Shown here one piece after another: positions 918 through 53,562 of a stretch of DNA of 64,000 nucleotides. This stretch comes from Malachius bipustulatus. Taxonomy: Eukaryota > Arthropoda > Insecta > Coleoptera > Melyridae. The position numbers were made by a program, and so were the translations under genes. The DNA is taken from NCBI GenBank assembly GCA_910589415.1, contig OU342630.1, forward strand, positions 28,491,867 through 28,555,866, given 5' to 3'. Under the pieces are notes generated by a model. The model did no database searches. It was not told the DNA's origin and was given only the letters and a program-made list of their open reading frames with translations. How positions within the stretch are numbered: the stretch's first letter is position 1; every line of letters starts with the position of its first letter.

Positions 918-979
918 TTTTATTGATTATGAATAAAACACTAATGTTTTATAAAATTCTACTGTATATTGATCGATGA

Positions 980-1035
980 TAGAAACGTTACACGTGTTTC
1001 GCTACTTTTCATGTAGCATCTTCAGACGTAAATAA
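980..1035 (-). ncRNA. Hammerhead ribozyme-like motif in PLE 3' end
   Basis: Read on the minus strand, ACGU (1029-1026) is followed by the core box CUGAAGA (1025-1019) and a stem II of GCUAC/GUAGC closed by a seven-base loop. Then come CGAAAC (GAAAC at 1000-996), a two-base-pair stem III with loop ACGU, and GUA as the would-be cleavage triplet (991-989). ACGU (988-985) then pairs with the first ACGU to make stem I. One extra U lies between CUGAAGA and stem II, and stem I is only four perfect pairs before an internal loop. Hammerhead motifs with tiny stem III are established features of PLE terminal repeats, and the position after the endonuclease gene fits. Activity of this copy is uncertain. 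Confidence 0.7.
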
Positions 1036-1154
1036 AATTATTGATACAGTAACATAGCAACAGTATTACCTAAGTGATCATGAAACAAGTAACTAGATTT
1101 AAATGAATTTTTAAGAGAACTAACTAGATCATAATGTATTTCTTCAGAATCTTC

Positions 1155-1737
1155 TTAGTTGTTGATATCAAGAAGAAAATCAAGTAGTGGAGAACGATAT
1201 GTGTCTAGCTGTTCATTTATTACTGTGTATTGTTGATTATTTAAATGTCTGTGGATCTCTAGAGATTCAAGAAAATTTAATTTAAAATAATGATCACAAT
1301 GATGTAGTAATTCAATTTTGTTGTTTGCTGTTAGAGTGTGATTGTTTTCTATTAAGTGTTTTGCAAAATTTGATCTTTCTGGATGCTTGAGTCTGTAAGA
1401 GTTTAGGTGTTCGTTGTATCTAATTTCTAGATTTCTACAAGTCTGTCCTATATAAATTGAATTACAATGAGAACAGTTTAATCGATAAATTCCAGGTTTC
1501 TGTAATTTAGATAACTTTTCCTTTGCATTCAGCAATATAGAACCATTACTCATAAAAGATTTGAATGAAATATTAAATGTAGTGGTGTTAGAAATTATCC
1601 TTGATATTTGTGTTGAAACGTTTCCAAAGTACGTTAGTGATGAATATTTTCTAATTTCATTGTTTTGTTGAGGTGACAGCTCTGTGTATCATTGAATTAT
1701 ATGCTGAAAGTTTGTGTGAAATTGAATGATTTGAATC
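1155..1737 (-). pseudogene. PLE GIY-YIG endonuclease domain
   Basis: The C-terminal domain of the PLE protein, which nicks target DNA to prime reverse transcription. The clean frame is 1553-1155 (132 codons). It shows the GIY motif and, 10 residues later, the YIGQT motif, followed by conserved R and E/H residues in a segment reading RYNEHLNSYR. A zinc-ligand-like C-x2-C pair (NCSHCN) lies between GIY and YIG, as is common in PLEs. Between 1737 and 1553 the linker is still readable, but only by changing frame near 1670 and ignoring the stop TAG at 1738-1740, so the domain is separated from the RT. The stop at 1155 is the natural end of the protein. Confidence 0.9.
1554..1737 (-). other. PLE linker between RT and endonuclease, frame broken
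   Basis: Readable in two minus-strand frames that meet near 1670. The first gives a segment with ISHKLSAYNSMIHRAV, the second one with LTYFGNVS and ISRIIS. These match the connector seen between the RT and GIY-YIG domains in PLEs. It shows that the coding region was once continuous and is now broken by one nonsense codon and one indel. Confidence 0.65.
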
Positions 1738-2101
1738 CTATGGTATTGTCATATTTGTATGTGTTGGTTTTCTATAGACAGAAAAGTCAAACTGATTATT
1801 CAATCTCGTGATAGACAAGTCTAAAAAGTTTATAGAATTATTTTCCTCACATTCTACAGTAAACCTAATATTTGGATGTAAGCTATTGATGAAATTAAGA
1901 AAGTTATCTAATTGTCTAGAGGAACCTACAAAACAAGAAAGAATATCGTCTACATACCTAAACCAAAACTTGATGCTATCTGCTTTGTCTGAGTGAAAGA
2001 TTTTCTTTTCAAGACTATTCATGAAAATATCTGCTAAAATCGGAGAAATTGGACTACCCATTGGAAGGCCTTCATTTTGAAGGTAGAACTTATTATCAAA
2101 G
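1738..2101 (-). pseudogene. PLE reverse transcriptase, C-terminal part (motifs B to E)
   Basis: Catalytic second half of the Penelope reverse transcriptase. It contains motif B (GLPMGSPISP), motif C as FRYVDDILS with the two catalytic aspartates, a FLDL block and the VYRKPTHT block typical of PLEs. The frame is interrupted at its N-terminal end by the gypsy LTR at 2102 and continues at 7014. It ends at an in-frame TAG at 1738, after which coding sequence continues towards the endonuclease. The apparent start inside the first codons is an artefact of the insertion and is not a real initiation site. Confidence 0.93.
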
Positions 2102-2384
2102 TGCAATGTTTCTACCGTCTATGACAAGTAGCCAACCCGCGTAATAAAACACGACCTGTATAATAGTAATCCCGTGTATTACGAATAACAACTGAATAGA
2201 AACAAATAATAGTTACTATAATAATTAAACATAAGTAATAATAATTATACAAATAAACCCCGGCAACGTGTGCGTGCGAGCTAACCATTCGTTACTCGTT
2301 ACTGACTGACTTTTCATATCTCTTTTGATATGCGCACACGCACTAACATTGCAATGTAAAACAACACTATATTCGGACATTACA
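2102..2384 (-). repeat. 3' LTR of the gypsy element
   Basis: 283 bp, identical to 6730-7013 except for one missing G. In element orientation it starts TGTAATGTCC and ends ACATTGCA. It follows the polypurine tract and abuts the target duplication CAAAG at 2097-2101. Confidence 0.96.
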
Positions 2385-2397
2385 TTCTTCCCCCGCT
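2385..2397 (-). other. Polypurine tract of the gypsy element
   Basis: On the minus strand the bases AGCGGGGGAAGAA lie directly before the TG of the 3' LTR. This is the expected position and composition for the plus-strand DNA primer. Confidence 0.75.
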
Positions 2398-2438
2398 AAT
2401 TTAAACGAGGACCTCCCCTATCAGAAAACTGCTTAAAT

Positions 2439-5400
2439 CTAGGTATACATCAATCTGTCAGGGGCGACTCTGTTTCGTTGAGGTCTCGCCGAGGTCGGAG
2501 TGCTACAAGTTTTAGGAGAATGTTCATGATTAACATTATCGCTCTCTCCAACCTCTGCAGTACCGTCATTTAGGTCTGACTTTCTTACACTTCCACCCCC
2601 CCATCTCTGAGGTGATTCCCGTAGTACTGCTCTAGAGGAGGAATCCCTAGGAGATGTCTCCGGTGTATTCTCAACATTATTGGTAACATTGTGATCGAAT
2701 GCATAAAAAGGTAACAGCTGGTTTACATGTCTAGTCCATATTAGGTCACTGTTATAAATTTTAACTCTATACAAATTTTTTGATACAATTTCAACAACAG
2801 TACCTATCGTCCAACTATTTTTTTGATAGCGATAATCCCTAGCTCGGACCTTTTGTCCCACATGCAGTTGTAATATCCTACCCCATTTAAAATAATGACT
2901 TTGTCTATTTTGTGATAATTTTAAGTTCATTTTTACATGATTATTATCTAAGGGTACATTCCTATTAGTTAATGGGTTTAATAAATCTAATCGCATTCTT
3001 AGTGATTTTCCCAATAAAATTTGAGCAGGAGATACGCCAGTAGAACAATGCGGCGTATTCCTGTATACTAGTAAAAATTTACTAATGCACTGTGCAAAGT
3101 CTACCTTGTCGCAATCTTTACATTTTTTTACAAGAAAACTTTTTAAGTTTTTTACAGCATTTTCGGCTAATCCATTCGATGCTGGGTTAAATGGCGGACT
3201 AAAGACTTGTTTAATGCCATTGGACTTCAAAAACGAAACGAACTCAGACGAAGCAAAATAAGAAGCATTGTCGGAACACACTGTTTTCGGAAGTCCGAAA
3301 CGCGCAAATACCTCTCTCAATTTTTCTATAGTCTTGTGTGACGTCATTGATGGCATTACGAACGCCTCCACCCATTTTGAGAAACTATCAATAATAACTA
3401 AAATAACTTTTCCTTGTATCGGACCTAAATAGTCGATGTGTAAACGCTCCCATGGTTGTTCAGTGATCGGCCATGGGGTTAATTCAACCTTAGGCGGGCT
3501 TTGTCTATAAGTTCCGCAAGCATCACAAGATTGACAATGTCTTTCTATTTCAACATTTAGTGAAGGCCACCAAACGTAACAACGAGCTAATGCTTTTGTT
3601 TTTACGATGCCTTGGTGAGATTTATGTAATTCATCCAAGACGTATCTTCGTAAATTTTGTGGGATAATAACGCGGTATCCCCAGAAGAGCACATTCTCTT
3701 CCACATGTAGTTCGTTTTTCCTTAGGAAGTACGGTCTTATTTCTGTATTTTTGATTTTGTCTGGCCAGCCGTTTAGACAAAATTCTTTTACCGTCTTCAA
3801 TACTGGGTCGTTTGCAGCTTCGTCGGCTATATTTTTAATATCTATCGGCAAATTTTTATTCTCCTCAATATAATTTAAAAAATTTACATCAAGTTCCTCC
3901 GTAATAATTGTATTTAACGGTAGTCTCGACAAAAAATCAGCCGCATTCTCGGATGACTTTACGTATTCAATTTTAAAATCGTAACACGACAAAAAATAAG
4001 CATACCTTTGTAGTTTATTTGACGACATAACCGGTATACCGTGCTTAGGACCAAATATCGCTACTAAAGGTCGGTTATCCGTACGCAAAGTGAATTTTCG
4101 TCCTGCAAGATATTGTTCAAATTTTTTAACACCGAACACTATGCCTGTAGCTTCTTTTACCATTATTGTAGCCTTTCGTTCCGTTTCCGAAAGTGTTCGC
4201 GACGCGTAAGCTATGGGTCTTTCGAGACCGTTCTTATACTTATGTGATAAGACCGCTCCTACCGCGAGATCACTGCTATCGGTTGTTAAAATCAGTTCCA
4301 AATTTGGATCATAATGGGCCAGAACAACGTCTGAACACATTAAATTTTTTATTCGATCCGTACACTCAGATGTCCAGTTCCAACAAGTGTCTGCTTTCAA
4401 TAGCTTATATAATGGACTCAATATGTGTGACATGTTATTTATAAATCTTTGATAATAATTTACCGCACCCAGAAATGACCTTAGCTGCGTCAGGTTCTGT
4501 AGAATTGGAGCTTCCTTCACAGCCCTTATTTTTTCTACTGACTTGTGAAGTCCATTCTTATCAATTACGTAACCTAAATATGTAACCGAATTTTCAAAAA
4601 ATTTACATTTATCGCGCTTTATAGTAAACCCGCTTTGTCTTAAAATTCCCAAAACTCTGCGCAACCTAGCTAAATGTTCCTCGTAATTTTTACCGGTAAC
4701 GAGTATGTCGTCTAGATATACGACTACGCCCTCGACCCCGTCAAAAAGGTGTTCCATGCATCTTTGAAATATTGATACAGCACTTTTTATACCATATGGC
4801 ATTCGTGTGTATAGGAACAATCCCTTGTGTGTATTAATGGTCGTCAATTTACGAGACTGATGGTCTAGCACCAGCTGCGCATAAGCGTTTTGTAAATCTA
4901 TCTTAGAGAATTGTATACCACCTTTCAGAACCGAAAAAATATCCTCTATACGCGGTATTGGATAAATGTCGTTTTCTACCACCGGATTCAAAGTTATCCT
5001 ATAATCACCGCATATTCTCACACTCTTATCTGATTTTAGAATCGGTACGATTGGTGTAGCCCATTCTGAATTTTCAACCGGAACTAAAACGCCAAGTTTC
5101 ACCAAGCGATCCAGTTCCTCTTCAACCTTTTCTTTAAATGCGAAAGGTAATGACCTATGTTTGCAAAATTTTGGAACAGTATCACTTTTTAATTTTATTG
5201 ATACTTTATAATTTTTAAAAGTACCTAAATTACCCGAAAAAACATCCGGAAACTCTTCGATCAATGGTTCTACAGGGCGGTTTACAAAGTTAAGCTCCCT
5301 GAACGTAATATTAAATTTTTTTAAAAAGTTCCTACCAAGCAATGTAGGTCCACCTTGCTTGATGACGTAAAAATCAACAACATGCTGAGCCTTGTTGTAG

Positions 5401-6578
5401 TCGACGGTTAAATTTATTTTGCCTACTGGAATAATTTTATCTCCCACATATCCAACTAAATTAGTCTCTGAATTTTGTAACTCTAAATCTCCAAAATTTC
5501 CCAGAAACATACTCTCAGAAAGAACAGATACAGCCGCACCTGAGTCTATTTCTACTTCAAAAGGTTTGCCATTTAATCGAACTTCAATGGTAATGGGTTT
5601 AATAAATTCAAATCCCCTCATGTGAAATAAATTTGCATCAAAATTATTATTATCTACGATTTCGGTAGAGGTGCAAGGTGCATTAGTATCACAAATTCCT
5701 TCCTGACAACCGGGTTCATCATATTCTGAACTAGGCTCTAAATAATTAACATTACGTTTATTTCTACACATTTTCCGTAGATGACCCCTAATCCCGCATT
5801 TATGACACCGAAAGTCACGATATACACACTGCCTTTCATTGTGACCAAGGCCGCACCTGCTGCACACTTCACCGAAATTTTGAACTTGAGGCTTACCTGG
5901 GAATTGAGAGCGTTGTGCATAATTAAAATTTTTACCACTCCCGTTGCCGTAGTTGCCGCTTCGATGTATAGCCCCATCGCCTCGGTGATGTTGCCGATTG
6001 TAAACTTGACCTTGATTTGACTGCTGCTGAAGTCGCTTTGAATGACCACCAGCCCGCGGCGAAAGTCGATTGATCTCAGGAGGTTCACTCTTGACGAAGG
6101 CCTCCTGCTGAACACCAAACCCTCCCGTCGCTGTTTCCGTTTGTAATGACAGTTCGATGGCTTGCTTCAGTGTCAATGCTGAGGGCTGAGTTAACAATTT
6201 ATCTAATACTGGACCTGGTTCTAATCCTGCGATGAATTTATCTAACAGTATACTTTCCAAATTCTCACCAAACTCGCAATTCACTGCATGGCTTTTCATT
6301 CTTGCTACGTAGTCCTGGATTGATTCATGCCGTAGTTTCTTAATGTGATAAAAATTATACCTTTCTGCCCATTTCAATTTAACTTCACCGAAATGCGAAT
6401 CCAATGCTTTTATTATATTACCGTAGGTTTCCGTATCAGCTTTTAATGGTAGCACTAAATTATCCACTAATTTATAACTTTCTTCTGACAATCCCGCTAA
6501 TAGAATAGCTCTCTGTTTTTCGGCAGCTTTAATCTCCCTAGCAATAAATAGTTGTTCTAGACGTTTCTTATGAACCAA
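2439..6578 (-). CDS. gag-pol: Gag-Pol polyprotein of the Ty3/gypsy element
   Basis: A single 1379-codon frame. Gag capsid-like sequence occupies about residues 1-150, followed by a Q/G/N-rich stretch and two zinc knuckles at about 239-251 and 258-271, the second a canonical CX2CX4HX4C. The aspartic protease has EIDSGAAV at 343-350. The reverse transcriptase has D561 in motif A and YLDD at 621-624. RNase H has D767 (LTTDSSD) and D834 (RTDN). The integrase has an H/C zinc-finger region at about 985-1021 and D1049, D1103 and E1139, a D-D(35)E spacing. No chromodomain or env is visible. The frame has no ATG at its start. A good ATG (MAGEII...) lies at 6628 in another frame, and the two frames meet near 6560, so one indel has separated the natural start. 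The stop is TAG at 2439. Confidence 0.96.
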   Translation of the reverse strand: MVHKKRLEQLFIAREIKAAEKQRAILLAGLSEESYKLVDNLVLPLKADTETYGNIIKALDSHFGEVKLKWAERYNFYHIKKLRHESIQDYVARMKSHAVNCEFGENLESILLDKFIAGLEPGPVLDKLLTQPSALTLKQAIELSLQTETATGGFGVQQEAFVKSEPPEINRLSPRAGGHSKRLQQQSNQGQVYNRQHHRGDGAIHRSGNYGNGSGKNFNYAQRSQFPGKPQVQNFGEVCSRCGLGHNERQCVYRDFRCHKCGIRGHLRKMCRNKRNVNYLEPSSEYDEPGCQEGICDTNAPCTSTEIVDNNNFDANLFHMRGFEFIKPITIEVRLNGKPFEVEIDSGAAVSVLSESMFLGNFGDLELQNSETNLVGYVGDKIIPVGKINLTVDYNKAQHVVDFYVIKQGGPTLLGRNFLKKFNITFRELNFVNRPVEPLIEEFPDVFSGNLGTFKNYKVSIKLKSDTVPKFCKHRSLPFAFKEKVEEELDRLVKLGVLVPVENSEWATPIVPILKSDKSVRICGDYRITLNPVVENDIYPIPRIEDIFSVLKGGIQFSKIDLQNAYAQLVLDHQSRKLTTINTHKGLFLYTRMPYGIKSAVSIFQRCMEHLFDGVEGVVVYLDDILVTGKNYEEHLARLRRVLGILRQSGFTIKRDKCKFFENSVTYLGYVIDKNGLHKSVEKIRAVKEAPILQNLTQLRSFLGAVNYYQRFINNMSHILSPLYKLLKADTCWNWTSECTDRIKNLMCSDVVLAHYDPNLELILTTDSSDLAVGAVLSHKYKNGLERPIAYASRTLSETERKATIMVKEATGIVFGVKKFEQYLAGRKFTLRTDNRPLVAIFGPKHGIPVMSSNKLQRYAYFLSCYDFKIEYVKSSENAADFLSRLPLNTIITEELDVNFLNYIEENKNLPIDIKNIADEAANDPVLKTVKEFCLNGWPDKIKNTEIRPYFLRKNELHVEENVLFWGYRVIIPQNLRRYVLDELHKSHQGIVKTKALARCYVWWPSLNVEIERHCQSCDACGTYRQSPPKVELTPWPITEQPWERLHIDYLGPIQGKVILVIIDSFSKWVEAFVMPSMTSHKTIEKLREVFARFGLPKTVCSDNASYFASSEFVSFLKSNGIKQVFSPPFNPASNGLAENAVKNLKSFLVKKCKDCDKVDFAQCISKFLLVYRNTPHCSTGVSPAQILLGKSLRMRLDLLNPLTNRNVPLDNNHVKMNLKLSQNRQSHYFKWGRILQLHVGQKVRARDYRYQKNSWTIGTVVEIVSKNLYRVKIYNSDLIWTRHVNQLLPFYAFDHNVTNNVENTPETSPRDSSSRAVLRESPQRWGGGSVRKSDLNDGTAEVGESDNVNHEHSPKTCSTPTSARPQRNRVAPDRLMYT

Positions 6579-6729
6579 CTATACCAACTATCCTTTTTGA
6601 AATCAAAATTAATAATTTCACCCGCCATTTCACCGGCGTTACTTTCCGCACCGTGCCGTTCACTTCGTTCCGCGTTATCTACCTAGGTAGGTAGGTAGTC
6701 CCGCTTATCGCTTTTCCTCGTCGCCAAAA
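6579..6729 (-). other. Gypsy leader with displaced Gag start
   Basis: The untranslated leader between the 5' LTR and Gag. An ATG at 6628 opens a frame whose first residues read MAGEIINFDFKK. That frame stops at a TAG close to 6553, just after it overlaps the long Gag-Pol frame. The Gag start therefore appears to be split from the body by a one-base indel, either a real lesion or an assembly error. Confidence 0.6.
6711..6726 (-). other. Primer-binding site of the gypsy element
   Basis: Three T residues after the end of the 5' LTR, the minus strand reads TGGCGACGAGGAAAAG. TGG, the complement of the tRNA 3' CCA, is the hallmark of a tRNA primer site. I cannot name the tRNA with confidence. Confidence 0.65.
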
Positions 6730-7013
6730 TGCAATGTTTCTACCGTCTATGACAAGGTAGCCAACCCGCGTAATAAAACACGACCTGTATAATAGTAATC
6801 CCGTGTATTACGAATAACAACTGAATAGAAACAAATAATAGTTACTATAATAATTAAACATAAGTAATAATAATTATACAAATAAACCCCGGCAACGTGT
6901 GCGTGCGAGCTAACCATTCGTTACTCGTTACTGACTGACTTTTCATATCTCTTTTGATATGCGCACACGCACTAACATTGCAATGTAAAACAACACTATA
7001 TTCGGACATTACA
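6730..7013 (-). repeat. 5' LTR of the gypsy element
   Basis: 284 bp, the partner of 2102-2384 with one extra G. It abuts the second copy of the target duplication CAAAG at 7014-7018. It should contain the element promoter; I see no certain TATA box. Confidence 0.96.
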
Positions 7014-8241
7014 CAAAGGAAAAGTAATTTTGGGATATACAAACATTGAATAAATCCATTACTTCAGAGATGTAGTCTGGTAGAAGATTGTTGGATTCTA
7101 ATAAGTTTTGAAGCATGGGTAAAACTTCTCGTGGAGGAATTGAAGAAAACATGCTCTTAACATCAAAGGAAACTAATTTGCCATTGTGTGGAACAGATTG
7201 TTGTTTAAGTTTTTGAATTAAGTCTAGTGAATTTTTGACGGTATATTTTGAAGTGTAATTAAATTTTTTTTTTTTTTTTAAGATTGTGTTGAGTTTCGCT
7301 GAAAGTTTATTATTTGGAACGTTAATGTATGAAACAACAGGTCTGATGGGTTGAAGTGGTTTATGTAGTTTGATGGTGCCGTATAATTTTGGAGCTTGAG
7401 GATTCTTTATGATGAGACTATGTTGTTCTGGTTTATTGAAAACTAAATCTGATTTATGAATAGTTTCTCTAGTTTTGTTTTGAAATTGTTTTGTGGGATC
7501 TCTGGGTAACTGAATTAAATTTTCAGTATTTATAAATTCGTAGATTTTATGTTTGTAACTGTCATGAGAGAGTATTACTGAAGTGTTACCTTTGTCTGCT
7601 TTTGTTAAAATTAAATTATTTTCTGAAATTTTAGTTTTTATAGATGTCAATATGGAAGTGTCATTATAATATTTTTGATTGTTGATTCTAGTGTTTTCGA
7701 GTTTCTTAATCAGTTTTGTGATTTGTAGTTTCTCGTATGTAAATTTATGTGAGCGTAATGCTAATTCTGATTCTGTAATCAAAATTTCTTTTACTTTAGT
7801 TGTAAATTTAGGTGTAATGTTGTATTGAAGACCTTTATTCAGAAAAGCTATTTCTTTGTCTGTGAATTGAGTGTTTGATAAATTTTGAAAACGAGGAAAG
7901 AAATTATGAGTTGTTTCGTTTTGTTCTTGAGTGTTATTGGTGTTACTGTAAGTTATTCTTTGTCTTTTTAGTTGGTTTAATTTATTGATTTGTTTCATGT
8001 ATTTTTTGTGCTTAATGTAACTAACAGTCTCTCTAATGTTATCATCTATGATGTCAAATTGTATTGGGTGTAGTTTGTGTGTTAATTCTGAATGGAGTAC
8101 CTTAATATTGATGTGTAGATTGTCTCGAATTTTGTACCATCTCTTGACTTCCTCCTTGAGCCAACAACATCTAGCTTTTTCCAATGCTTTCTGACAACTC
8201 GTTGACGAGCAGAAGTTAGCCAGAATATTTGGTTGAACCAA
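7014..8241 (-). pseudogene. PLE reverse transcriptase, N-terminal part (to motif A)
   Basis: About 410 codons of the PLE protein. After an uncharacterised N-terminal half it shows the PLE block LTKADKGNTSVIL, then PKLYGTIKLHK, then PIRPVVSYINVPNNKLSAKL, and motif A as SFDVKSMFSSIPP with the first catalytic aspartate. The coding sequence is cut by the gypsy insertion after NYFSF and resumes in frame at 2101. A lysine run (KKKKK, from an A/T homopolymer near 7265) may hide a small indel. The start is uncertain because the first ~33 codons lie within the hairpin formed with 8297-8363. Confidence 0.93.
8141..8207. repeat. PLE 5' inverted repeat, inner arm
   Basis: These 67 bp are the exact reverse complement of 8297-8363, separated by an 89-bp spacer. 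The inner arm is part of the PLE coding frame. The outer arm is therefore an inverted copy of the 5' coding end, a structure expected from strand switching during integration and often seen at PLE 5' ends. Confidence 0.9.
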
Positions 8242-8296
8242 GAATGCCTGCGACAGAAATTGACTCCAAAATACATCAATGTGACATCCAGATCTA

Positions 8297-8363
8297 CGTC
8301 AACGAGTTGTCAGAAAGCATTGGAAAAAGCTAGATGTTGTTGGCTCAAGGAGGAAGTCAAGAG
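8297..8363. repeat. PLE 5' inverted repeat, outer arm
   Basis: Reverse complement of 8141-8207. About 25 bp separate it from the target duplication at 8389. There is no upstream copy of the 3' hammerhead-bearing end, so this insertion lacks the 5' terminal repeat of a full PLE. Confidence 0.85.
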
Positions 8364-8388
8364 AAGTAAGGGTTGAAAACATAAATTT

Positions 8389-8400
8389 CACGTCATTGAT
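8389..8400. repeat. 12-bp target-site duplication of the PLE, right copy
   Basis: Exact match to 906-917, directly following the inverted 5' end of the Penelope-like element. Confidence 0.9.
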
Positions 8401-16929: not shown

Positions 16930-18741
16930 TCATACATGAAGTCTCGACATAGTAGCTACCACCGTGTCAAGACTATCAGAGTTTAGGTCACAAAGCTGTG
17001 ACAAGTTGTTGTCATATTTGCACATAAGAAACACTGGAGACCTAATAAGTACATTAGAGCTCGAACGTGGACAGTAAAATATTGCGTTATTCCTGGAGTT
17101 GACTTGTGGAACCAAAAACGAGACATTGTCCAACAGAGATGGGCAGTCTATCAAGTTATGCATAAGATTGAATAGAAATCTTACAATAATGATAATTCGT
17201 CTCAACTCCAGGGAACATACAAACATACTTCAAACCTCGTTAAAAGCATGTCGTGATCAAAACCCCTATCAGGGTAGACACCATCCATTACAAATGACAA
17301 GAATTTCAGGAATCTTCTCTGTATTTGTTCAAGGTTGTTAATATACACTCCGTAAATGGGATACCACACCAGGCATCCATATTCCAGCCTAGCCCTAATC
17401 AGAGTCTTAAACAAAGTAATAAGGATATTGGCATCTTTAAACTCCCGACAGTGGCGATATATGTATCCATAGATCCTGTACGCTCCAGAAATTGTGGTAC
17501 ACACATGCTCACCGAAGTGTAGGCGTCTATCAAATACTATGCCCAGATCCCTTATACTCTCCAGCCTATTCAGTATGATATTATTTACGGAGTAGTCATG
17601 TTTGATATATAACTTCTTTCTTGTAAAGGAAACAACATTACACTTCGAGACATTGAGAGATAGTCTGTTACTAGCACACCATCGACTCACGGAGTCAATG
17701 TTTTCTTGCAAGGTTACACAATCATTGATGGACTTAATGGAGGTAAACAACTTGAGGTCGTCGGCATACAACAATTTATTGCAGGTGATCACTTTTTCAA
17801 TGTCGTTAATAAAAAGTAGGAATAAGAGGGGTCCAAGTTTGGACCCTTGAGGGACACCAGAGGTGGGTACAAAAGTATCTGACATATAGTTATTGTATTT
17901 TACAAACTGTCGCCGATCAGTTAGATATTATGATCTAAATAGTTTAACCAGATCGTCAGAGAACCCAAACGAGTGCAATTTATTTAGAAGAATAAAGTGA
18001 TCGATTTGGTCAAAGGCCTTCTGAAAGTCTGTGTATACCACATCGACCTGACCTTTGCCGTCGATCACTTCGGCTGTATACTGACTAAAAGAGGCCAGGT
18101 TCGTGATTGTAGAGCGCTTTTCGACAAATCCATGCTGGTTCGGCGACAAGTAATTAGTAACAAAGGATACAGTATAGATGTGCCGATACAGTATAGATTC
18201 AAAAACTTTGGAGAAGTTACAGCATAGTGAGGTAGGTCTATAGTTGTACACCGAAGATTTATCTCCCTTTTTGTGGATAGGCGTAATGCTAGACTGCTTC
18301 CAAATCTCTGGAAATATTGATGATTTTATTGCTAGATTGAATAAAGTTTTCAGCGGCTTCACTAGTAAACAAGCGCAGTCCTTCAACAGAAAACTGGGGA
18401 TCATGTCGACGCCACAAGTGAGAGAATTTTTGCACTGTTTTAGGGCAGTTAGAATCTCATCCTCAGATACACAACCAATGGAGAAAGTCTGATTATTAGT
18501 ATAACTATGGAAAGATGGTGTGCCAGCAAGCGACACATCAGAATGAATGTAAACACCACGAAAGAAATCACCGAAAGCATTAACAATCTCCTGGGGGTTA
18601 CGCATCTCAGCATTATTGTATTTTACAAGTCCCGGTATTCTAGTATTACCCTTTTTTTTTTGTTAACGTATGACCAGAATTTTCTTGCGTCCCTTGAAAT
18701 AGAACCCTGAACATCCCTGATATACGCCTTGTGATTTTCTT
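16930..18741 (-). pseudogene. Reverse transcriptase of non-LTR element B
   Basis: From the N-terminal side: the linker (FWSYVNKKKG), a NPQEIVNAFGDFF block, WKQSSITPIHKKGDKS and YNYRPTSL (RT blocks), and QHGFVEKRSTITNLASF. Motif A is VVYTDFQKAFDQIDH, motif B SGVPQGSKLGPLLF followed by LFINDI, and motif C LLYADDLKLF, both aspartates present. Then follow the thumb (LNVSKCNVVSF, LGIVFDRRLHF) and a C-terminal tail. Lesions are few: one in-frame TAA near 17928 between LFRS and YLTDRRQF, and a frameshift near 17215. The tail frame 17226-16930 ends naturally at TAG near 16930. Everything else reads through. Confidence 0.92.
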
Positions 18742-24150: not shown

Positions 24151-26003
24151 GTAAACCACTACGCTGATATTACCTGACTATGGAAAGTTTCATAAAGCCC
24201 ATTTCAAAAGCGGTGAAAATGTTCGCAAAAAAATACCCTACTTATGAGATTGATGCGCTAGAAGGTTTTTGCCATTCTCAATGGCCATCTTCATTCAGCT
24301 TGGCTGATTGATATTATACCCCCTCATTTATGGTTTAATGTGCCCCATCTTGTGTTTATCTCAACACAAAAACCGTAGACAACAACCACTACCGCATTTT
24401 GAGATCAGAAATTTATAATGGCAATTTATAGACTCTGAACTATTACAAATCCAGTTTCTTAACAACTTACCTCTAAAGTTAAAATTAAAGAATTCTTTCA
24501 TCACGTTTTATCACACCACCGCTTCCACTCAAACACTTCACTAAACACAGAGTGACTTATAATATGCCTATATGTACTCATATGCCTGAAAACAACCTCA
24601 GATGACAAATTCAATTTTGTGGATTTTACAAGGGATGGCTGAATCGACCCCGTGGAGGAATTGCCCCCCTTTATTCTATACACGTCAGTAGAAGTACCTT
24701 CAGAGGCGAGTAAATGAGTAGAAGGAGAAGGTAATCTTGATGTGGTGCTTGTTAGTATGAGTAAAAAAAAAACTGTCAATGTTGCGTTAGTTTACCAAGT
24801 GACCCGGATGATTAATATTTGACATCAGATTTTTTTTTCTGATAACTGTTGCTAATCCAGTCCGTAATGTAGAAAATACACCAGGAGTTTGTAGCAACAA
24901 AAAAAAAATTAATGTAAGATTTTTCTTCGAGAACTGCTAGTGGAAATCTCATACATCATACCACCACAAAACTTGGTTGTTAATTTTTTGCCTCAAAACT
25001 ATCTTTAACTAGAAGATAATACCTACCTGGCGTAATCTCATGAATTTATTTGTAGTAAAATGAAAATGTGACTAGGTACCTGCTTACTTGCGATCGCTAA
25101 ACTTACTTTTTCTCACTTGTGGATTAGATATAAGAATCGCCAGACTTATTACGATGAAAAAAATCTACATATAGGAGTCCTTTATTTTAGTTCCTCCCTG
25201 AAAATCTATTAAAGTTTTGCCATTCTAATAATGTTTTCTAATGAGAGATAACTAAATAGTGAAGACTAGATCTATAAATTCCACTACTCCCGTAACGAGA
25301 CCATCACTGGGCCATTAAATTCTTCAACTCGATAAACTTACCGTGCACACGAGAGTTTAGTAATGAACAGGAAATAATAATATGAAATTTTTTAAAGAAA
25401 ATTACAAATCCAAAAATAGAGGATAGCTCATTTCGCAATTAAGTGCAGTAATAATCAGTTTTGCTTATTTCATCTTGGTCTGGTCGACTAAGCGAATTGA
25501 AGATAGTTGGTCACCATCGTCCATCAATATCCATTGAAATTCAAGCCTTGTATCAGTAAATGCATGTTTATAGAGGAGTCATGGCTGACAATCGTCCTCG
25601 AGCCTGGAAAATCATCGGCTCGTCGCCGTAACGCGTAACTGTGGTGGTAATCTTTCTATCTAGAGGTAGGTTCACTCACCGAGCATTGTCTTCTATTTAT
25701 GACGGCATCGTCACTGCTATTTTCTACAGCGATCGCATCTCACAGGCGCATCCTCGCTCGAATAACAGTTGTAGGTTGCACAATTCAGTGGCGTACCCGT
25801 AGTGTCGAAATGCAAATCAAGTCCTTTACTCTATTCTGGAGTCTTCGAAACACTTTAAAAATCAGCCCTTTTAGGTTTATACTTTTATAACTTAGTTAGC
25901 TGACCATTAAAATTACAAGACACAATAGCAATCGGACACCAAGTAAGACAAATACTATTTCCAAGATTTCGCATATTGTGTGTCGTGTGTTCTTGACTGA
26001 TGC
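24151..26003. other. No gene recognised
   Basis: Unique, mostly AT-rich. The minus-strand frame 24779-24501 (92 codons) has a balanced composition with many S/T and no internal low complexity, and a pyrimidine tract lies upstream of it. I cannot recognise a product and do not call it a gene. Confidence 0.4.
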
Positions 26004-26050
26004 GACATGCTGATGAGTCCAAATTAGGATGAAACGGTACCCTTTATGTC
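26004..26050 (+). ncRNA. Solitary hammerhead-like motif, partly decayed
   Basis: GACATG (26004-26009) precedes the exact core box CUGAUGA (26010-26016). Stem II is GUCC/GGAU with loop AAAUUA, followed by GAAAC (26031-26035). The stem III region has GG/CC inside a C-C mismatch, then UU at the cleavage position (26043-26044) and UAUGUC (26045-26050). UAUGUC pairs with GACAUG, one pair being G-U. An outer CUG/CAG pairing beyond an internal loop is possible. This is the arrangement of a type I hammerhead with minimal stem III. The C-C mismatch suggests reduced or no activity. There is no tandem copy nearby. Confidence 0.6.
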
Positions 26051-27109
26051 TTCAGCTTCACCTTACATGCTATGCGAAAGTCTTCTAATTAGTTCTTTAA
26101 AAGTGACATATATTGGCAATTGAATTAGAACCTAAATCCGAAGAAAATCTAATATATTTATATAATCTAAGTGGCTCAAGAATACATAATATAATTTTAT
26201 GAAGAACTTTTGTTTGTCTTCTAAAAATTTTCTACATCTTCACAATACCAATACACCAAATACTGCTCAGAGACTTTGTTTATTTAACAATCTCACTGGC
26301 ATGATGTTTATAATACTTAGTATCCGATAATAAGCGAGTACATAGGAATCGTAACGTATAAACGAATATCTATTAGCAAATTATAGTAATTATGACAATC
26401 AAGCCGGACAGTCTAAGCACATGTTTTGATATCCTTAATTGACATGCCGCCGGAGCGTCAGTGTGTCGGTTCCCAAGCTCCGGGCGCAATGTTCGGCTAC
26501 TGTACCATTTAATGAATATTAAGTGGTTCCGTGTCCAGAGCCTACTGTATACCTATGCCATATAAGGTGGCGCGATATTGACTTGGAGTATTTATTTATG
26601 GCACCTCAGGAGTATATGCGCTGCATCGTTCCGTGCTTTCATTTATAAACAATTTATTGCAGGGATCGATCACAAATATCGCATATGGCAGCTTACAATT
26701 ACCAAGACTGAGGTGGTCTTTCTTAATTATTACCATTACATATTTTAGATGCGTTTTTATTAAAGATTTATCACTTCCATTGTTTTGTATATCCGGTTCG
26801 AAAGACCACTTTTCCGTAGTCGGACTCGAAGGGCTAAATTAATTATAGGTAGAGGGTTGGGCAACAGTATTAAATTACGAAAGTTGGTGTTTCTGAAAAG
26901 ACATTTCTCGATGATAGGTTATTCGCGAAGATTTGTTAGAAAAAATATTTTAAAGATTATCGGTTGGATGAAATATCAAGAGATTGATGGATGGAACGTG
27001 AGAAGGAGGAAGCAGCCCTAAGCCTCGTCTTTCTAATAATTGATTATGAATGTTAATAAATTATCATTTATGATTATGAGTTGCATTTCTAGAAAACTTT
27101 TATCCGTTA
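26051..27109. other. No gene recognised
   Basis: Unique sequence between the solitary hammerhead motif and the outer palindrome arm. Short plus-strand frames at 26633-27021 show no recognisable domain. Confidence 0.4.
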
Positions 27110-35271: not shown

Positions 35272-36960
35272 ATAATAATAATAATAATAAAGAACCTTTA
35301 TTTGTTTGTGTACTGTACATTTTACAATACAAAATTAAACTGGGAGGCGAAGTCTAGCCTGAGCTACTCTACTTAACCTCCAGCCAATGAAATTAACAAC
35401 TTAGGTATTTACTTTAACCAATAATAACAATCACTTCACAACCGCTGCTGAATTTCCAGTAAATAAACTTTATAATGTTTTTTCAAGAAATTTAGGGTAC
35501 GTGTTCTCATAAAACTAGGTATAGCGTTAAATATTTTAACTGCATTGTACGTGAAACATCTCTGAGACCCAGCAAGACGGAATTTGGGTAGCATTAATGT
35601 ATCTGTATATCTAATAAAGCGATGATGCATGTCACCCCTTAGTAACAATTTCTCTTTGAGGTATGCAGGTGTCGATGTATATAAGATTTTGTACACTAAC
35701 GAGCTCATATGATATTTGTAAAGGTTTTCTATTCTCAACCATTTCAGCTCATTTATTTTAGCTGATACTCTGTCATATTTTCGGAGACCAAATACAAATT
35801 TGCAACACGCATTTTGCACTTTTTGAAGGCGATATTTAGTTGATTGGTACAGACATGGAAAATAAAGAACCAGACCATAATTTAGAACAGAAAGCACCAG
35901 ACTCTCGCATAATACCTTTCTCAACCGAAAGCCAAGCAAGTGTCTGTTTCTGTACAACTGCCTCAAAACTAAGTAAGACTTCTTAAGCAGAATCGAGACC
36001 TGCTCATTGAACCGCAGTCTACAATCAAAAATTATACCGAGATTTTTTTGACACCTTGCACTCCTCAATGGCTGATTCCCAACAATCAGCTGCAAGTCCT
36101 CCACATCCGGGCTCGAACCAAACGTCATAACGCTACATTTTTCGGGATTTAGCCTGAGTCCGTGGGCATCAGAAAAGGCTGCCAAAGATGCAATATCATT
36201 ATTCATGCTATTTGAAGCAAACTCCACCATCTGGGAGCTATACGAGAAATAGAGCTGGGTGTCATCCGCAAATGACTGGATACTAACATGTTGTATTGTT
36301 CTTGTACTATCGGCTACATAGATCAGGTAAAGGACCGGTCCCAAGACAGAGCCTTGGGGAACTCCAGACTCCAGATGTAACTGGAGCAAAATCAGAGGAA
36401 GAAGTATAATCGAAAATAACCTTCTGGAAGCGATCTTCCAGATAATGAGTAAAAAAACCACATGAGATGTCATCGAAGCCAAAGTACCGTAGTTTTGCAC
36501 ATAAAAGTCTATGGTCGAGGGTATCAAAGGCCTTTGAATAGTCCAACTGAACCACAGATGTGGCAAGCCCGAGGTCCAGCGACCTAATGATGTGATCTGT
36601 CAGGTTCAACATCGAGGTTGTTGTGCTGTAGCCCTTACGGAATCCCGACTGACTAGTTGGAATTATTTCGGAGTCGACCACGAATTGATAAATTTGCTTA
36701 GACACTACCTTTTCAAGTACTTTAGACAACGAAGGAAGAATACTAACTGGGCGCAGGTCGGAAAAACTCTCAGGATTAGAGACTTTGGGCAGGGGTTTAA
36801 TCAGGGAATATTTCCACTGTTGCGGGAAATATCCAGATTCCAAGCAGCAGTTGATGATATGAGTCAGATAGGGAGCGATCACATTTAAGGAGAACTTTAA
36901 CAACAAAATGTTTTTTACTATTGTCATGCAAGTAGTCATAAAAACCAGAGCACTGAAGTA
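35272..36960 (-). mobile_element. Non-LTR retrotransposon C, 5'-truncated
   Basis: A CR1/L2-like element on the minus strand. The 3' end is AATAAAGGTTCTTTATTATTATT, with a short trinucleotide tail at 35272-35290. The RT covers the interior, and recognisable coding starts near 36945. The family differs from A/B and F. The copy is little degraded apart from one frame change, so it inserted relatively recently. Confidence 0.87.
35436..36939 (-). pseudogene. Reverse transcriptase of non-LTR element C
   Basis: The upstream frame (36939 to about 36370) has IKPLPKVSNPESFSDLRPVS, a QSGFRKGYSTTT block and motif A in VVQLDYSKAFDTLDH. After a one-base shift near 36370 the second frame continues with motif B (SGVPQGSVLGP) and motif C (SFADDTQLYF, both aspartates). 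It goes on with LNPEKCSVMTF, LGIIFDCRLRF, a LNYGLVLYFPC block and the C-terminal block LNFLKKHYKVYLLEIQ, and stops at 35436. The AP endonuclease is absent. The protein end is natural, just before a roughly 160-bp 3' UTR. Confidence 0.93.
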
Positions 36961-38047
36961 ATAAGATTTCCTAACTTTTCAACAACACTGCTAGCAAGCA
37001 ATATTTCAAGTCCGCACAATTATTATTTGAATAACCACTTCAAAACTTATTGGAAAATACAAACTTGCTAGCATGATGTGAAAATTGAATTGAGTTTATC
37101 GACTTTGCTGACCTAATCAGCAGAGGTAATAACAAGGAGAGTGCGAACAGAGGGGCTTCTACTCTGGGGGAGTGTGACTCCAACTCTTGGAGGTAGCGGG
37201 TACTCCGCAAAGTCGTAAGTAAATAAGTAGTGCCGTTATTGTGAAAGTGCTGGTTAAGAAGCTGGCTCTCCGGAACAAAAGCTGTTCGCAGTTTTACAAA
37301 TTGTACAAACAAGCGTTAGGATGATGCGTATGTAAGTACATTTCTACTTTCATAAATTTAGTGTATGTATTTAATGAGCGTTCTTGACCACACTACGGTC
37401 AAATCATATAATATAAATAAAAAGTCCTCAGCAATCGCTAGAGACTTTCAGGGTAGCCGAAGTACTCTTAAGGCCTCCTCAAGGTAGCTCCCCTTCAGGG
37501 TTTTTATTTTATTTTTAATCTCTAATAGTACCAGAGGGCTCCCCTGGATACTAGCGGCGGCTGTAAAGGAACGACTTTAATAGTAAGGACCGTAGTCCAT
37601 TGTAAACATTTTAGTACCCCCCATAGTTATTAACGTATGACTATCAATTATTATTATTAATTTCTTCAAAATTATTTCAACTGTTTAATTTTCTCAATAA
37701 ACTAAATATATATTTTTTTGTAAATCTTTTATTTGTTCTTACCCCCTTTTAACCCTACGAAATAGAGCAACCCCCCCCCCCCCCCCCCCCCGGGCAAAAC
37801 AGGTACATTATATTTTCTACAAATTGTATAAATTTCAATCAGGCGTTTTGAAAAAAAAAACATTTTTTTAGCAAAGTTCATATCATAAAAAATAACAATT
37901 TTTTACTAGTCTGGCGGGCGTTACATGTTTCTTACATATTGCTCAGCCATTTTTTTCACTTTATAATTTTGAGGTGTTCTATCGGGTACCTTTTTTGTCA
38001 TAGGAGCTTAGACTACTAGTGTTTTATTATAAAAACATCACACTGTT
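36961..38047. other. No gene recognised; contains a 21-base C tract
   Basis: A 90-codon minus frame (37312-37040) has no recognisable domain. A run of 21 C lies at 37771-37791, preceded by shorter C runs. Confidence 0.45.
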
Positions 38048-51177: not shown

Positions 51178-51249
51178 ACAGGGTGTCCGGTAATTACCTC
51201 CTAATCTCTCGGGAGCATACAGGGAAGGTCAAAATAAACCTAGTCTGTC

Positions 51250-51261
51250 ATAAAAAAACAT
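51250..51261. repeat. 12-bp target-site duplication of the hammerhead array, left
   Basis: ATAAAAAAACAT, identical to 52736-52747. In the opposite arm of the foldback host this sequence is single and continuous, which confirms that it marks the insertion point. Confidence 0.88.
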
Positions 51262-51424
51262 AACAAACCATAGGTAGGTAGGTCTTAATGAGTATAAAGA
51301 CAAATCAATAGCCTGTCGTATTGGAGTCGGGTTTTAACCCATCGTCCTGACAGTTGTCAAGTCTGGAGTGCCCGAGAACCCAAATAAAGAGTTTTCGACC
51401 CAGGCAGCAACACACATCCAACCA

Positions 51425-51492
51425 GACTACCAAAAGCACGGACGGCCGTTTCGGTCCCATTAGACCTCGTCAGCGTACTATATTGGAGAGTC
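51425..51492 (-). ncRNA. Hammerhead ribozyme, copy 1 (inverted unit)
   Basis: Minus strand. Stem I outer pairs are GACU/AGUC and CCAA/UUGG, with an internal loop, then AGUACG/CGUGCU. Core CUGACGA, stem II GGUCU/GGACC with loop AAUG, core GAAA, stem III A-U and C-G closing GGCC, cleavage triplet GUC (51443-51441). Stem II has a U-G pair where copies 2 and 3 have U-A, so the helix is kept. All invariant core positions are present. Confidence 0.93.
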
Positions 51493-52022
51493 CGGAAGGA
51501 TATGAATCGCTGCATGAATCGAAAACCCTATATGGAATCTCATTCAACCGGTTACCAGTGACCTCGAGACAGAGCGACATCTATCAAGAGAAACAACAGG
51601 CTCCCAGCCAAAACAAAACTCCAATGTGTATTATGGGTTGCAGACACTCCAGGGGCTACGAGACTGACATCAAATATGCATATTAAAAAGCCAAAGTATA
51701 CTCAAAAGTCACAACAAACCATAGGTAGGTAGGTCTTAATGAGTATAAAGACAAATCAATAGCCTGTCGTATTGGACAGGCCCTACCTACCTATGGTTTG
51801 TTGTGACTTTTGAGTATACTTCGGCTTTTTAATATGCATATTTGATGTCAGTCTCGTAGCCCCTGGAGTGTCTGCAACCCATAATACACATTGGAGTTTT
51901 GTTTTGGCTGGGAGCCTGTTGTTTCTCTTGATAGATGTCGCTCTGTCTCGAGGTCACTGGTAACCGGTTGAATGAGATTCCATATAGGGTTTTCGATTCA
52001 TGCAGCGATTCATATCCTTCCG

Positions 52023-52090
52023 GACTCTCCAATATAGTACGCTGACGAGGTCTAATGAGACCGAAACGGCCGTCCGTGCTTTTGGTAGTC
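52023..52090 (+). ncRNA. Hammerhead ribozyme, copy 2
   Basis: Core boxes CUGACGA (52042-52048) and GAAA (52063-52066). Stem II GGUCU/AGACC with loop AAUG. Two-pair stem III with tetraloop GGCC. Cleavage predicted after GUC at 52074. Stem I is AGUACG/CGUGCU, then an internal loop UAU/U, then CCAA/UUGG and GACU/AGUC. Loop-containing stem I and minimal stem III define the type I form seen in satellites, PLEs and retrozymes. Confidence 0.95.
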
Positions 52091-52473
52091 TGGTTGGATG
52101 TGTGTTGCTGCCTGGGTCGAAAACTCTTTATTTGGGTTCTCGGGCACTCCAGACTTGACAACTGTCAGGACGATGGGTTAAAACCCGACTCCAATACGAC
52201 AGGCTATTGATTTGTCTTTATACTCATTAAGACCTACCTACCTATGGTTTGTTGTGACTTTTGAGTATACTTCGGCTTTTTAATATGCATATTTGATGTC
52301 AGTCTCGTAGCCCCTGGAGTGTCTGCAACCCATAATACACATTGGAGTTTTGTTTTGGCTGGGAGCCTGTTGTTTCTCTTGATAGATGTCGCTCTGTCTC
52401 GAGGTCACTGGTAACCGGTTGAATGAGATTCCATATAGGGTTTTCGATTCATGCAGCGATTCATATCCTTCCG

Positions 52474-52541
52474 GACTCTCCAATATAGTACGCTGACGAG
52501 GTCTAATGAGACCGAAACGGCCGTCCGTGCTTTTGGTAGTC
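52474..52541 (+). ncRNA. Hammerhead ribozyme, copy 3
   Basis: Identical to copy 2, exactly 451 bp downstream. Cleavage is predicted after 52525. Cleavage at copies 2 and 3 would release a 451-nt monomer (52075-52525). Confidence 0.95.
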
Positions 52542-52735
52542 TGGTTGGATGTGTGTTGCTGCCTGGGTCGAAAACTCTTTATTTGGGTTCTCGGGCACTC
52601 CAGACTTGACAACTGTCAGGACGATGGGTTAAAACCCGACTCCAATACGACAGGCTATTGATTTGTCTTTATACTCATTAAGACCTACCTACCTATGGTT
52701 TGTTGTGACTTTTGAGTATACTTCGGCTTTTTAAT

Positions 52736-52747
52736 ATAAAAAAACAT
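52736..52747. repeat. 12-bp target-site duplication of the hammerhead array, right
   Basis: ATAAAAAAACAT, exact partner of 51250-51261. It directly follows the truncated last unit, which ends TTTTTAATAT. Confidence 0.88.
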
Positions 52748-53562
52748 TCCTAAAGTGTCCCTAAACGGAGATACAGAGCCCCAAAATGGTACCCTAAGAT
52801 TTAATTTCTTGGCTCTAACTTTTGAACCGACCTGAATAATTTGATGAAATTTTAATTTTTTTATAGAGGCCATAAAGACTCATTAAGCCATATCAGAGTG
52901 GATGTTTGACGTCCTAAAGGAAGTCAGGAAAGGACTTACCACCACACTCATTGTGCCAAAGTTTTGACAGGTGTCATTTTACAGAGCTGAAAACTTATTT
53001 TCAAGATAAATCGACTTTTATGCGAATTTTGATCAAATTCCGTCAATAGCAATGCATTATGTAGGTAGGTTTATCAACAAGAACCTGATTTTTACCTGTT
53101 TGTGTTTAGCGTTAGTAACTTTTTAGTGTTTCGCATACCTAAAAACCGATTTATCTCGAAAACCGTCAGTTTTACCGAAATAAATTAGGAGAACCTTTTT
53201 TAAAGATGAAGTATTAGACTATTCAAAAAAATAGTTTTTAGCTCTGTAAAGTGACACCTGTCAAAATTTTGACTCAACGAGTATGATGGTAAGTCCGTTC
53301 CTGACTTCCCTGACGACGTCAAACATCGACTTTAATATGGCCTGATGGCTCTCTGTGACCTCTATAAAGTGTTCAAATTCCATCCAATTATACAGATCGG
53401 TTCAAAAGTTAGAGCCAAAAAAGTAAATTGCGGGGCACCCTTTTAGGGCTCCATATCTCCGTTTGGGGACACTCTAGGAATTTTTTTTTATGACACACTT
53501 TAAGTTTTTTTGACCTCCCTTGTATGCTCCCGAGAGATTAGCAGGTACTTACCAGACACCCT

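Follow-up and report, generated by a model that had tools for sequence, protein, structure and literature searches.

The locus considered here is a 1474-bp insertion at positions 51262-52735 of a 64,000-nucleotide stretch of the Malachius bipustulatus genome (C1:28491867-28555866 of the 544-Mb assembly; hereafter the window). It is built from a 451-bp unit that carries a hammerhead ribozyme, and it raises the question of which protein inserted it, and from what kind of RNA. We consider it probable, from the anatomy of this insertion and its genomic relatives, that it is a retrozyme without long terminal repeats (non-LTR retrozyme) whose insertion was carried out by a protein encoded in a Penelope-like element (PLE). 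In this reading the target was cut with a stagger, and its two 3' overhangs would both have primed PLE reverse transcription on one circular retrozyme RNA. The kind of element is already known from metazoans; what is new is the evidence on its movement, namely a rule that pairs two outer ends (sites A and B), a palindromic target, and sequence shared with a PLE.

Papers are cited here by PubMed Central number, and for the portions of their text available to us. The enzyme that spreads retrozymes in animals has been left open between long interspersed nuclear elements (LINEs) and PLEs (PMC7229834, discussion; PMC11722881). PLEs are presented as a strong candidate helper and no more (PMC7229834), and an origin of retrozymes from reduced PLEs has only been proposed (PMC11722881). 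A literature search that included PMC7229834, PMC11167929, PMC3846280, PMC8490949, PMC4918200, PMC11722881, PMC12910113 and PMC7761336, with supplements and most subscription papers outside it, returned no earlier account of retrozymes with A/B ends or a PLE start region.

A 451-bp retrozyme unit in an older foldback element

The insertion places 1.1 antisense units head-to-head with 2.1 sense units: 515 bp of antisense unit (51262-51776, 99% identical to the unit reversed) are followed by the five bases CAGGC and 954 bp of sense sequence, and the direct 451-bp repeats at 51782-52737 are 100% identical. We number the unit from the hammerhead cut, with unit 1 at 52075 and unit 451 at 52525. A perfect 12-bp target site duplication (TSD), ATAAAAAAACAT, bounds the insertion at 51250-51261 and 52736-52747. 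With the insert removed, the flanks align unbroken across the site to the other arm of a foldback element (194 of 236 columns identical). The retrozyme interrupts this older element, and the other arm shows the empty site. A preliminary description of the locus had reported both the perfect duplication and the greater age of the foldback host, and these stand. It had also treated the locus as one repeat array; the repetition of 451 bp is exact, but the copies are inverted, a feature it had not stressed, and do not form one tandem array. An origin of the insertion from the foldback itself was considered and judged unlikely. The sole unit frame of at least 110 codons has 111 codons and no Pfam match. 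Given this frame, and with no reverse transcriptase (RT) or GIY-YIG coding recognised, we regard the retrozyme as dependent on a PLE and not as a PLE itself. The frame runs from stop to stop opposite the RNA strand in each unit (51351-51686, 51829-52164 and 52280-52615), with no sign of a gene.

Read by eye, each unit has the full type I hammerhead core CTGACGA, stem II GGTCT/AGACC, GAAA, a stem III of 2 bp (AC/GT) and the C. Stem I is interrupted by an internal loop, and the minimum free energy fold differs in detail. The three complete type I hammerheads of the preliminary description, with their two-pair stem III and looped stem I, are thereby recovered, and its cleavage sites after 52074 and 52525 agree with our predicted positions. 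At the gathering score, Rfam gives no match in the window, and the hammerheads appear only under an E-value search. Under that search both sense copies match Hammerhead_1 (RF00163) with 25.9 bits (gathering score 34 bits; E 0.0021 for 2.5 kb and 0.053 for the whole window), and the antisense copy matches only RF02275 (19.6 bits, E 0.15). The covariance check suggested earlier therefore yields a hit that falls below the gathering score. A hammerhead-core pattern scan of the window gave 36 overlapping matches against a chance mean of 9.75, and the pattern alone is weak. Since Rfam by itself is borderline, we base the hammerhead assignment on its exact repetition and on the fetched insertions described below, in which every core base is kept in 178 of 181 hammerhead copies. 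Another hammerhead-like core, at 26010-26053 (+), was rejected; its surroundings (25985-26080) fold no better than shuffles (z -0.83).

Self-cleavage at the two sense copies is predicted to release a 451-nt RNA, as had been suggested, the unit between the cut sites being 451 bp (45% GC). Folded as a circle, this RNA reaches -172 kcal/mol, against -120 ± 5 for 60 shuffles. The predicted circle is long, branched and self-paired, and by eye the hammerhead and the A/B region lie on separate arms. Strong self-pairing is general for animal retrozyme circles (PMC7229834).

Two fixed outer ends and a symmetric target

A search of the same genome with a head-to-head query gave 423 candidate places, of which 40 were scored and all 40 read; they comprise 39 fetched stretches with 40 insertions (two of them in L014, while L020 spans two adjacent matches). 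These copies are dispersed over many contigs, and 31 of the 40 have their own TSD, as expected of the mobile, non-satellite element that the preliminary description had inferred and proposed to check by such a count. The TSD is exactly 12 bp long in 22 insertions, 12 bp with one mismatch in L038, and 11 bp in a T run in L010. It measures 13-15 bp in seven others (L013, L015, L017, L021, L032, L033 and L034), where chance lengthening is possible in AT-rich sequence. No LTR structure was seen in the 40 insertions.

The outer ends follow a rule. Two sites account for the ends of 30 of the 31 TSD-bearing insertions: site A, at unit 172-182 with a median of 180, and site B, at 209-218 with a median of 213. 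These 30 have one end at each site, and none of the 31 has two like ends (A/A or B/B). Site A is on the left in 14 insertions and site B in 16. With an independent choice between A and B at each end, the probability that all 30 pairs are mixed would be 1e-9. Some ends of L021, L038 and L039 were read by eye and then rechecked; in L021 and L039 one of the blocks is only 10 and 11 nt long, respectively, and that of L021 ends at 213. By comparison, the inner ends (66 ends at 33 junctions) are scattered over the whole unit with no preference (chi-square p 0.82). Both orientations are present in 36 of the 40 insertions (33 by alignment, L025 separately, L021 and L039 through their 10-11-nt second block), and L030, L037, L044 and L047 have a single orientation. 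All 36 are antisense on the left and sense on the right, so that the 3' direction of the RNA always points outward.

A less selective search used 141 bases of a single strand as query; 40 of its 508 candidates were scored, with 41 matches. By eye, opposite-strand neighbours among them were antisense-sense in seven cases and sense-antisense in none. The head-to-head arrangement recurs in two of three further insertions from this search, both outside the first sample: L097 has one A end, one B end and a 13-bp TSD, and L096 has B and A ends.

The target shows a pattern as well. Across 21 of the 22 sites with an exact 12-bp TSD (L045 was not entered), oriented with A on the left, position -3 is G or A in 21/21 and position -1 is C or T in 21/21. 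Twelve AT-rich bases follow, then G (13), T (7) or A (1) at +1 and C (13), T (7) or A (1) at +3, a pyrimidine in 20 of 21. Three of three insertions of a PLE family with an 823-aa frame fit this pattern (GCC-12-GCC, GCC-12-GTC and GGC-12-GGT); the measured shared length of their TSDs is 13, the last base being G in both element and flank. The pattern common to retrozyme and 823-aa-frame PLE is GNC-12-GNC. Such two-fold symmetry would be expected if a dimer cut both strands, each ahead of its GNC, to leave 3' overhangs of 12 nt.

One RNA behind both arms

Mean unit divergence is 0.69% within insertions and 0.74% between opposite arms, as against 2.7% between insertions. The two arms have private variants in common. 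Among insertions with at least four copies, 150 sites vary inside insertions; 132 of these are single-copy variants, one has only different single changes, and 17 are common to several copies. Nine of the 17 are covered on both arms, and none of the nine is shared across them. Blocks longer than one unit make up 59 of the 78 aligned, and L018 reaches 8.6 units (the 9.6 of L025 is overlong). By this variant pattern both arms are copies of one RNA, and the data are best explained by a single monomer, a putative circle, that was copied over and over from either side.

A start region shared with one PLE family

PLEs are abundant in this genome. A search of it for GIY-YIG gave 150 scored matches of 775 candidates, many of them in frames of 823-855 aa and in tandem, and a 605-aa piece of one PLE holds both RVT_1 and GIY-YIG domains. 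For the PLE protein piece 120 relatives were listed; those named to species are beetles, with the ladybirds Coccinella and Henosepilachna most prominent, at 42-48% identity. Opposite-strand GIY-YIG neighbours within 7.5 kb are antisense/sense in 23 cases and sense/antisense in two, and the latter two join different PLE families as judged by scores. We read both ends of 10 PLE insertions from six families (three with the 841-aa frame, three with the 823-aa frame, and one each of 840, 848, 855 and C3:48235063). In 10 of 10, an A end is paired with one that lies some 32-39 nt farther on. The second end of the 840 copy lies up to 43 nt beyond A, blurred by a TA tract, and the A end falls short of A by 13 nt in one 841 copy (L091) and by 2 nt in L088 and L090. 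A seventh family (833) was reached at one end only, and the TSDs of most other PLE families are masked by the (TA)n tracts in which these families lie.

Anchored at site A, with one retrozyme base set to the family majority, the retrozyme aligns to the 823-aa-frame PLE with a score of 58, which none of 150 shuffles reaches (11.5 ± 6.4). The five other PLE families score 3 to 18 (z -0.8 to 2.1). The stems around A are TATACTCA/TGAGTATA in the retrozyme and TATACCCA/TGGGTATA in the 823-aa-frame PLE, with one pair changed on both sides. Upstream of A the alignment continues into the PLE hammerhead, which points to a remnant of it at unit 88-128 whose core has been lost. Divergence between insertions is 0.33% in unit 78-200, the segment that includes this start region, 0.53% in the hammerhead and 2.27% in the remainder. 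Judged by the anchored alignment, the retrozyme carries the start region of one PLE family of the six, that with the 823-aa frame.

How the insertion may have been made

We propose the following course of events. Transcripts of retrozyme arrays would cut themselves at their hammerheads into 451-nt RNAs that are closed to circles. The circle is predicted to fold upon itself so that its hammerhead is well separated from a PLE-like start hairpin. This hairpin would be bound by the GIY-YIG/RT protein of a PLE, the 823-aa-frame family being the most likely source. Judging from the insertion sites, the protein would make its cuts in the two strands 12 nt apart, in AT-rich sequence with G/A-N-C on either side. 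Both 3' overhangs would prime reverse transcription on one circle, one at A and the other about 33 nt away at B, without need of homology. Each complementary DNA (cDNA) would round the circle a variable number of times before the cDNA ends were joined head-to-head at random positions and the gaps filled, giving the 12-bp duplication. The end rule, the target motif, the fixed TSD, the single origin of the two arms and the start region in common with a PLE are read from the sequence itself; the circular template, the identity of the protein and the order of the steps are what we infer. If the scheme holds, retrozyme insertions that bear a PLE signature and share a PLE start region offer a defined protein, RNA and target to combine. 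They would also explain inverted PLE structures simply, and would probably record in the genome the reverse transcription of a circular RNA.

A broader reading seems to us evenly balanced between right and wrong. Two-ended target-primed reverse transcription would be the general PLE mechanism, in which a symmetric cut with 12-nt 3' overhangs, starts at A and B on one RNA, and joined cDNAs yield the long-familiar head-to-head arrays of PLEs. Retrozymes would then be reduced PLE repeats that kept the start region. Their old PLE hammerhead would have become inactive (the remnant at unit 88-128) and a canonical one been gained, and their closed RNA circle would be copied round and round. A second retrozyme family bears on how far two-ended insertion extends. 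A type I hammerhead model gave 74 scored matches of 44-60 bits among 73468 first-look candidates, several of them spaced about 320 bp apart (a unit of about 320 bp, with a strong hammerhead of 58.7 bits). The two insertions read (L093 and L094) are head-to-head and, by eye, end at the same two outer sites; their TSDs are 12 bp long, or ambiguously 13 bp in one. Two-ended insertion thus seems wider than the 451-bp family, with a spacing that is not fixed.

Several observations weigh against PLE-made insertion from a circle, or narrow it. The 40 places of the main sample are the best matches to a query that was itself head-to-head. Nine of the 40 insertions have no recognisable TSD (L025, L026, L028, L030, L031, L037, L040, L044 and L047), with odd right ends in L025 (240) and L026 (303). 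One of the 31 with a TSD breaks the end rule (L017, ends 147 and 212), and both L017 and L020 contain long unaligned stretches. In the one-strand search several places had a single match only, L096 lacks a clear TSD, and L095 has one orientation, a right end near B (220 as aligned), a left end at 37 and no TSD. Copies beyond the main sample are likely more varied; the end rule still holds there, and simpler copies exist. Because of L095, our confidence in the PLE-retrozyme reading is slightly lowered.

The shared sequence has weak points as well. The longer alignment into the PLE hammerhead is only moderate, with 2 of 1000 shuffles as good and a best score of 60 among 169 real-sequence controls, against 64. 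We had expected the site-A stem to stand out in each PLE family, an expectation that failed against shuffles: taken singly, no start hairpin, whether of the six PLE families or of the retrozyme, does better than they do (161 to 756 of 2000 as good). The low divergence of unit 78-200 is equalled by 11 of 451 circular shifts, probably near neighbours. In the second retrozyme family the outer ends of the two insertions lie about 150 nt apart, so that a 33-nt spacing is not general for retrozymes, and a comparison of L093 and L094 with the PLE tails available gave no significant match. For an Anolis PLE in vitro, no strand difference in start site is described (PMC11167929), whereas here each insertion has one start of each kind. 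Finally, the circle is here a reading of genome anatomy.

Among other explanations, a linear multimeric transcript of an older array could have been the template in place of a circle, the PLE doing the rest. We think this unlikely, although it has points in its favour: multimeric RNAs exist for axolotl retrozymes (PMC7229834), hammerhead cleavage is not needed for insertion in the Anolis PLE assay (PMC11167929), and a very homogeneous source array could mimic the variant pattern of a single monomer. That variants are mostly single-copy (132/150), with 0/9 testable shared ones crossing the arms, is nevertheless what one recopied monomer would give, and multimers with cores as well kept as these (178/181) should cut themselves. 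A snap-back of one cDNA that primes itself, as proposed for rotifer PLEs, where palindromes occur at inverted junctions (PMC3846280), would also make head-to-head arms. The window junction carries, by eye, a 7-bp palindrome, GCCTGTC/GACAGGC, and a few paired inner positions are close (440/443, 343/345 and 211/209). A snap-back requires equal inner ends, however, while paired inner positions are mostly unrelated (e.g., 116/159, 166/95 and 76/195) and the outer ends are two different sites, which leaves this origin quite improbable.

Insertion by a LINE, through target-primed reverse transcription with twin priming (5' inversion), we hold to be more improbable still. Twin priming likewise yields inverted 5' parts and TSDs, and LINE-like RT frames are present in the window by eye (RVT_1 in 17202-17927 and 36307-36978). 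LINE insertions end at the 3' end of their RNA, with tails, have TSDs of variable length and are inverted in a minority of cases, whereas the retrozyme has internal ends, 36 of 40 insertions inverted, and a TSD fixed near 12 bp within a two-fold symmetric motif. Its end rule was compared with PLE copies of this genome, and they share it. A tandem satellite, or a DNA transposon with long inverted repeats, would account for tandem and inverted repeats and for a TSD. It is hardly credible for copies that are dispersed on many contigs with their own TSDs, permuted inner ends and variable unit numbers, and a DNA transposon would be one with no terminal inverted repeat of fixed sequence and a 111-codon frame without a Pfam match. 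We retain insertion by a PLE protein from one circular RNA as the probable reading.

Relation to known systems

The metazoan non-LTR retrozymes described by Cervera and de la Pena (2020; PMC7229834) have type I hammerheads in repeats of 150-450 bp and TSDs longer than 4 bp. Our element resembles them in its type I hammerhead in each unit, tandem units, no LTR structure in the insertions read, GC content below 50%, TSD above 4 bp, highly self-paired predicted circle and PLEs in the same genome. The preliminary description is therefore partly supported: the retrozyme-like nature holds, but the claim of an undescribed RNA-based mobile system does not, as such elements are already on record (PMC7229834). 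The 451-nt unit differs in lying at the upper edge of the reported range, and the head-to-head arrangement with two fixed ends, the 12-bp TSD, the palindromic target and the PLE start region set it apart from what that paper describes (PMC7229834).

PLEs offer a close parallel to the insertion process. The protein of an Anolis PLE (Poseidon) cuts and extends both strands in vitro and starts at two adjacent internal RNA sites, which bound a 30-40-bp "tail" of genomic copies (PMC11167929). In rotifers (Penelope of Adineta vaga), PLEs are arranged head-to-head, one inverted end may bear a 31-bp tail, and TSDs are either 8-10 bp long or missing (PMC3846280), as against 12 bp here. The likeness therefore extends to two adjacent internal start sites 30-40 nt apart, cutting and extension of both strands, head-to-head arms, and a tail on one end. 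PLEs differ in that they encode RT and GIY-YIG and their hammerhead is minimal, whereas the retrozyme encodes nothing recognisable and has a canonical one. Plant LTR retrozymes, which carry type III hammerheads, LTRs, a primer binding site, a polypurine tract and a 4-bp TSD (PMC4918200), and for which Gypsy machinery is proposed (PMC7229834), share with ours a self-cleaved, circularised RNA as proposed intermediate (PMC4918200). They are unlike it in hammerhead type (type III against type I) and TSD length (4 against 12 bp).

In the partnership of short interspersed nuclear elements (SINEs) with LINEs by a shared 3' end, the non-autonomous element carries the start signal of its helper, and the retrozyme would do the same. 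Unlike in that partnership, the helper here would be a PLE, the template is probably a circle, and both target strands would prime. A collection of viral contigs, from which records of the source genome may be left out, gave 0 exact matches of the hammerhead, and this search does not place the element with viroid-like replicons known from viral contigs.

Features of the insertion and further observations on PLEs

Table 1. Features of the retrozyme insertion and its host element; positions are those of the window.
Feature	Positions	Strand	Unit positions	Basis or remark
Older foldback element, left arm	51180..51237	+
Left 12-bp TSD, ATAAAAAAACAT	51250..51261	.		Sequence comparison
Antisense block, 1.14 units	51262..51776	-	Outer end 179 (site A); inner end 116
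Type I hammerhead, antisense copy	51418..51491	-		RF02275, 19.6 bits, core by eye; predicted cut between 51441 and 51440
Head-to-head junction CAGGC, 5 nt, between blocks	51777..51781	.
Sense block, 2.1 units of 451 bp	51782..52735	+	Outer end 210 (site B)
Type I hammerhead	52036..52080	+		RF00163, 25.9 bits; predicted cut after 52074
One unit, predicted 451-nt circular RNA	52075..52525	+	1-451	Circular fold
Stem-loop collinear with hammerhead of 823-aa-frame PLE, catalytic core apparently lost	52162..52202	+	88-128	Alignment inference
Proposed reverse-transcription start hairpin, TATACTCA...TGAGTATA, containing site A	52219..52269	+	145-195	Site A at about unit 180
Site B region, second end position	52283..52292	+	209-218
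Type I hammerhead	52487..52531	+		RF00163, 25.9 bits; predicted cut after 52525
Right 12-bp TSD	52736..52747	.
Older foldback element, right arm	53505..53562	-		Inner part from 53301 is the empty-site control

The window itself holds a PLE at 906-8400 (-), with a GIY-YIG frame at 1155-1688, an RT frame at 1738-2118, an N-terminal frame at 7009-8298 and a hammerhead-like stretch at 978-1025. A Gypsy-type element (repeats 2097-2384 and 6725-7013, frame 2439-6578) splits it, and the 12-bp ATCAATGACGTG occurs at 906-917 and 8389-8400. Its left junction shows a 68-bp inverted repeat (8140-8207/8297-8364). We left this copy out as a further example of the end rule, given the extra 27 nt and the 68-bp inverted repeat at that junction.

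Elsewhere in the genome, a stretch of another contig (C11:3382-82839) has six antisense PLE matches followed by 18 in sense; 21 of the 24 contain an open frame of 833 aa. Retrozymes and PLEs also meet directly: by eye, the L045 insertion lies within an apparent PLE GIY-YIG coding stretch (L045/L051), and the L036 insertion sits between two inverted PLE blocks. The PLE insertions L055 and L073, in (TA)n tracts, adjoin the terminus CAGGGTGTCC, and the retrozyme insertion L031 lies directly beside such a terminus, which the terminus of the foldback element in the window resembles.

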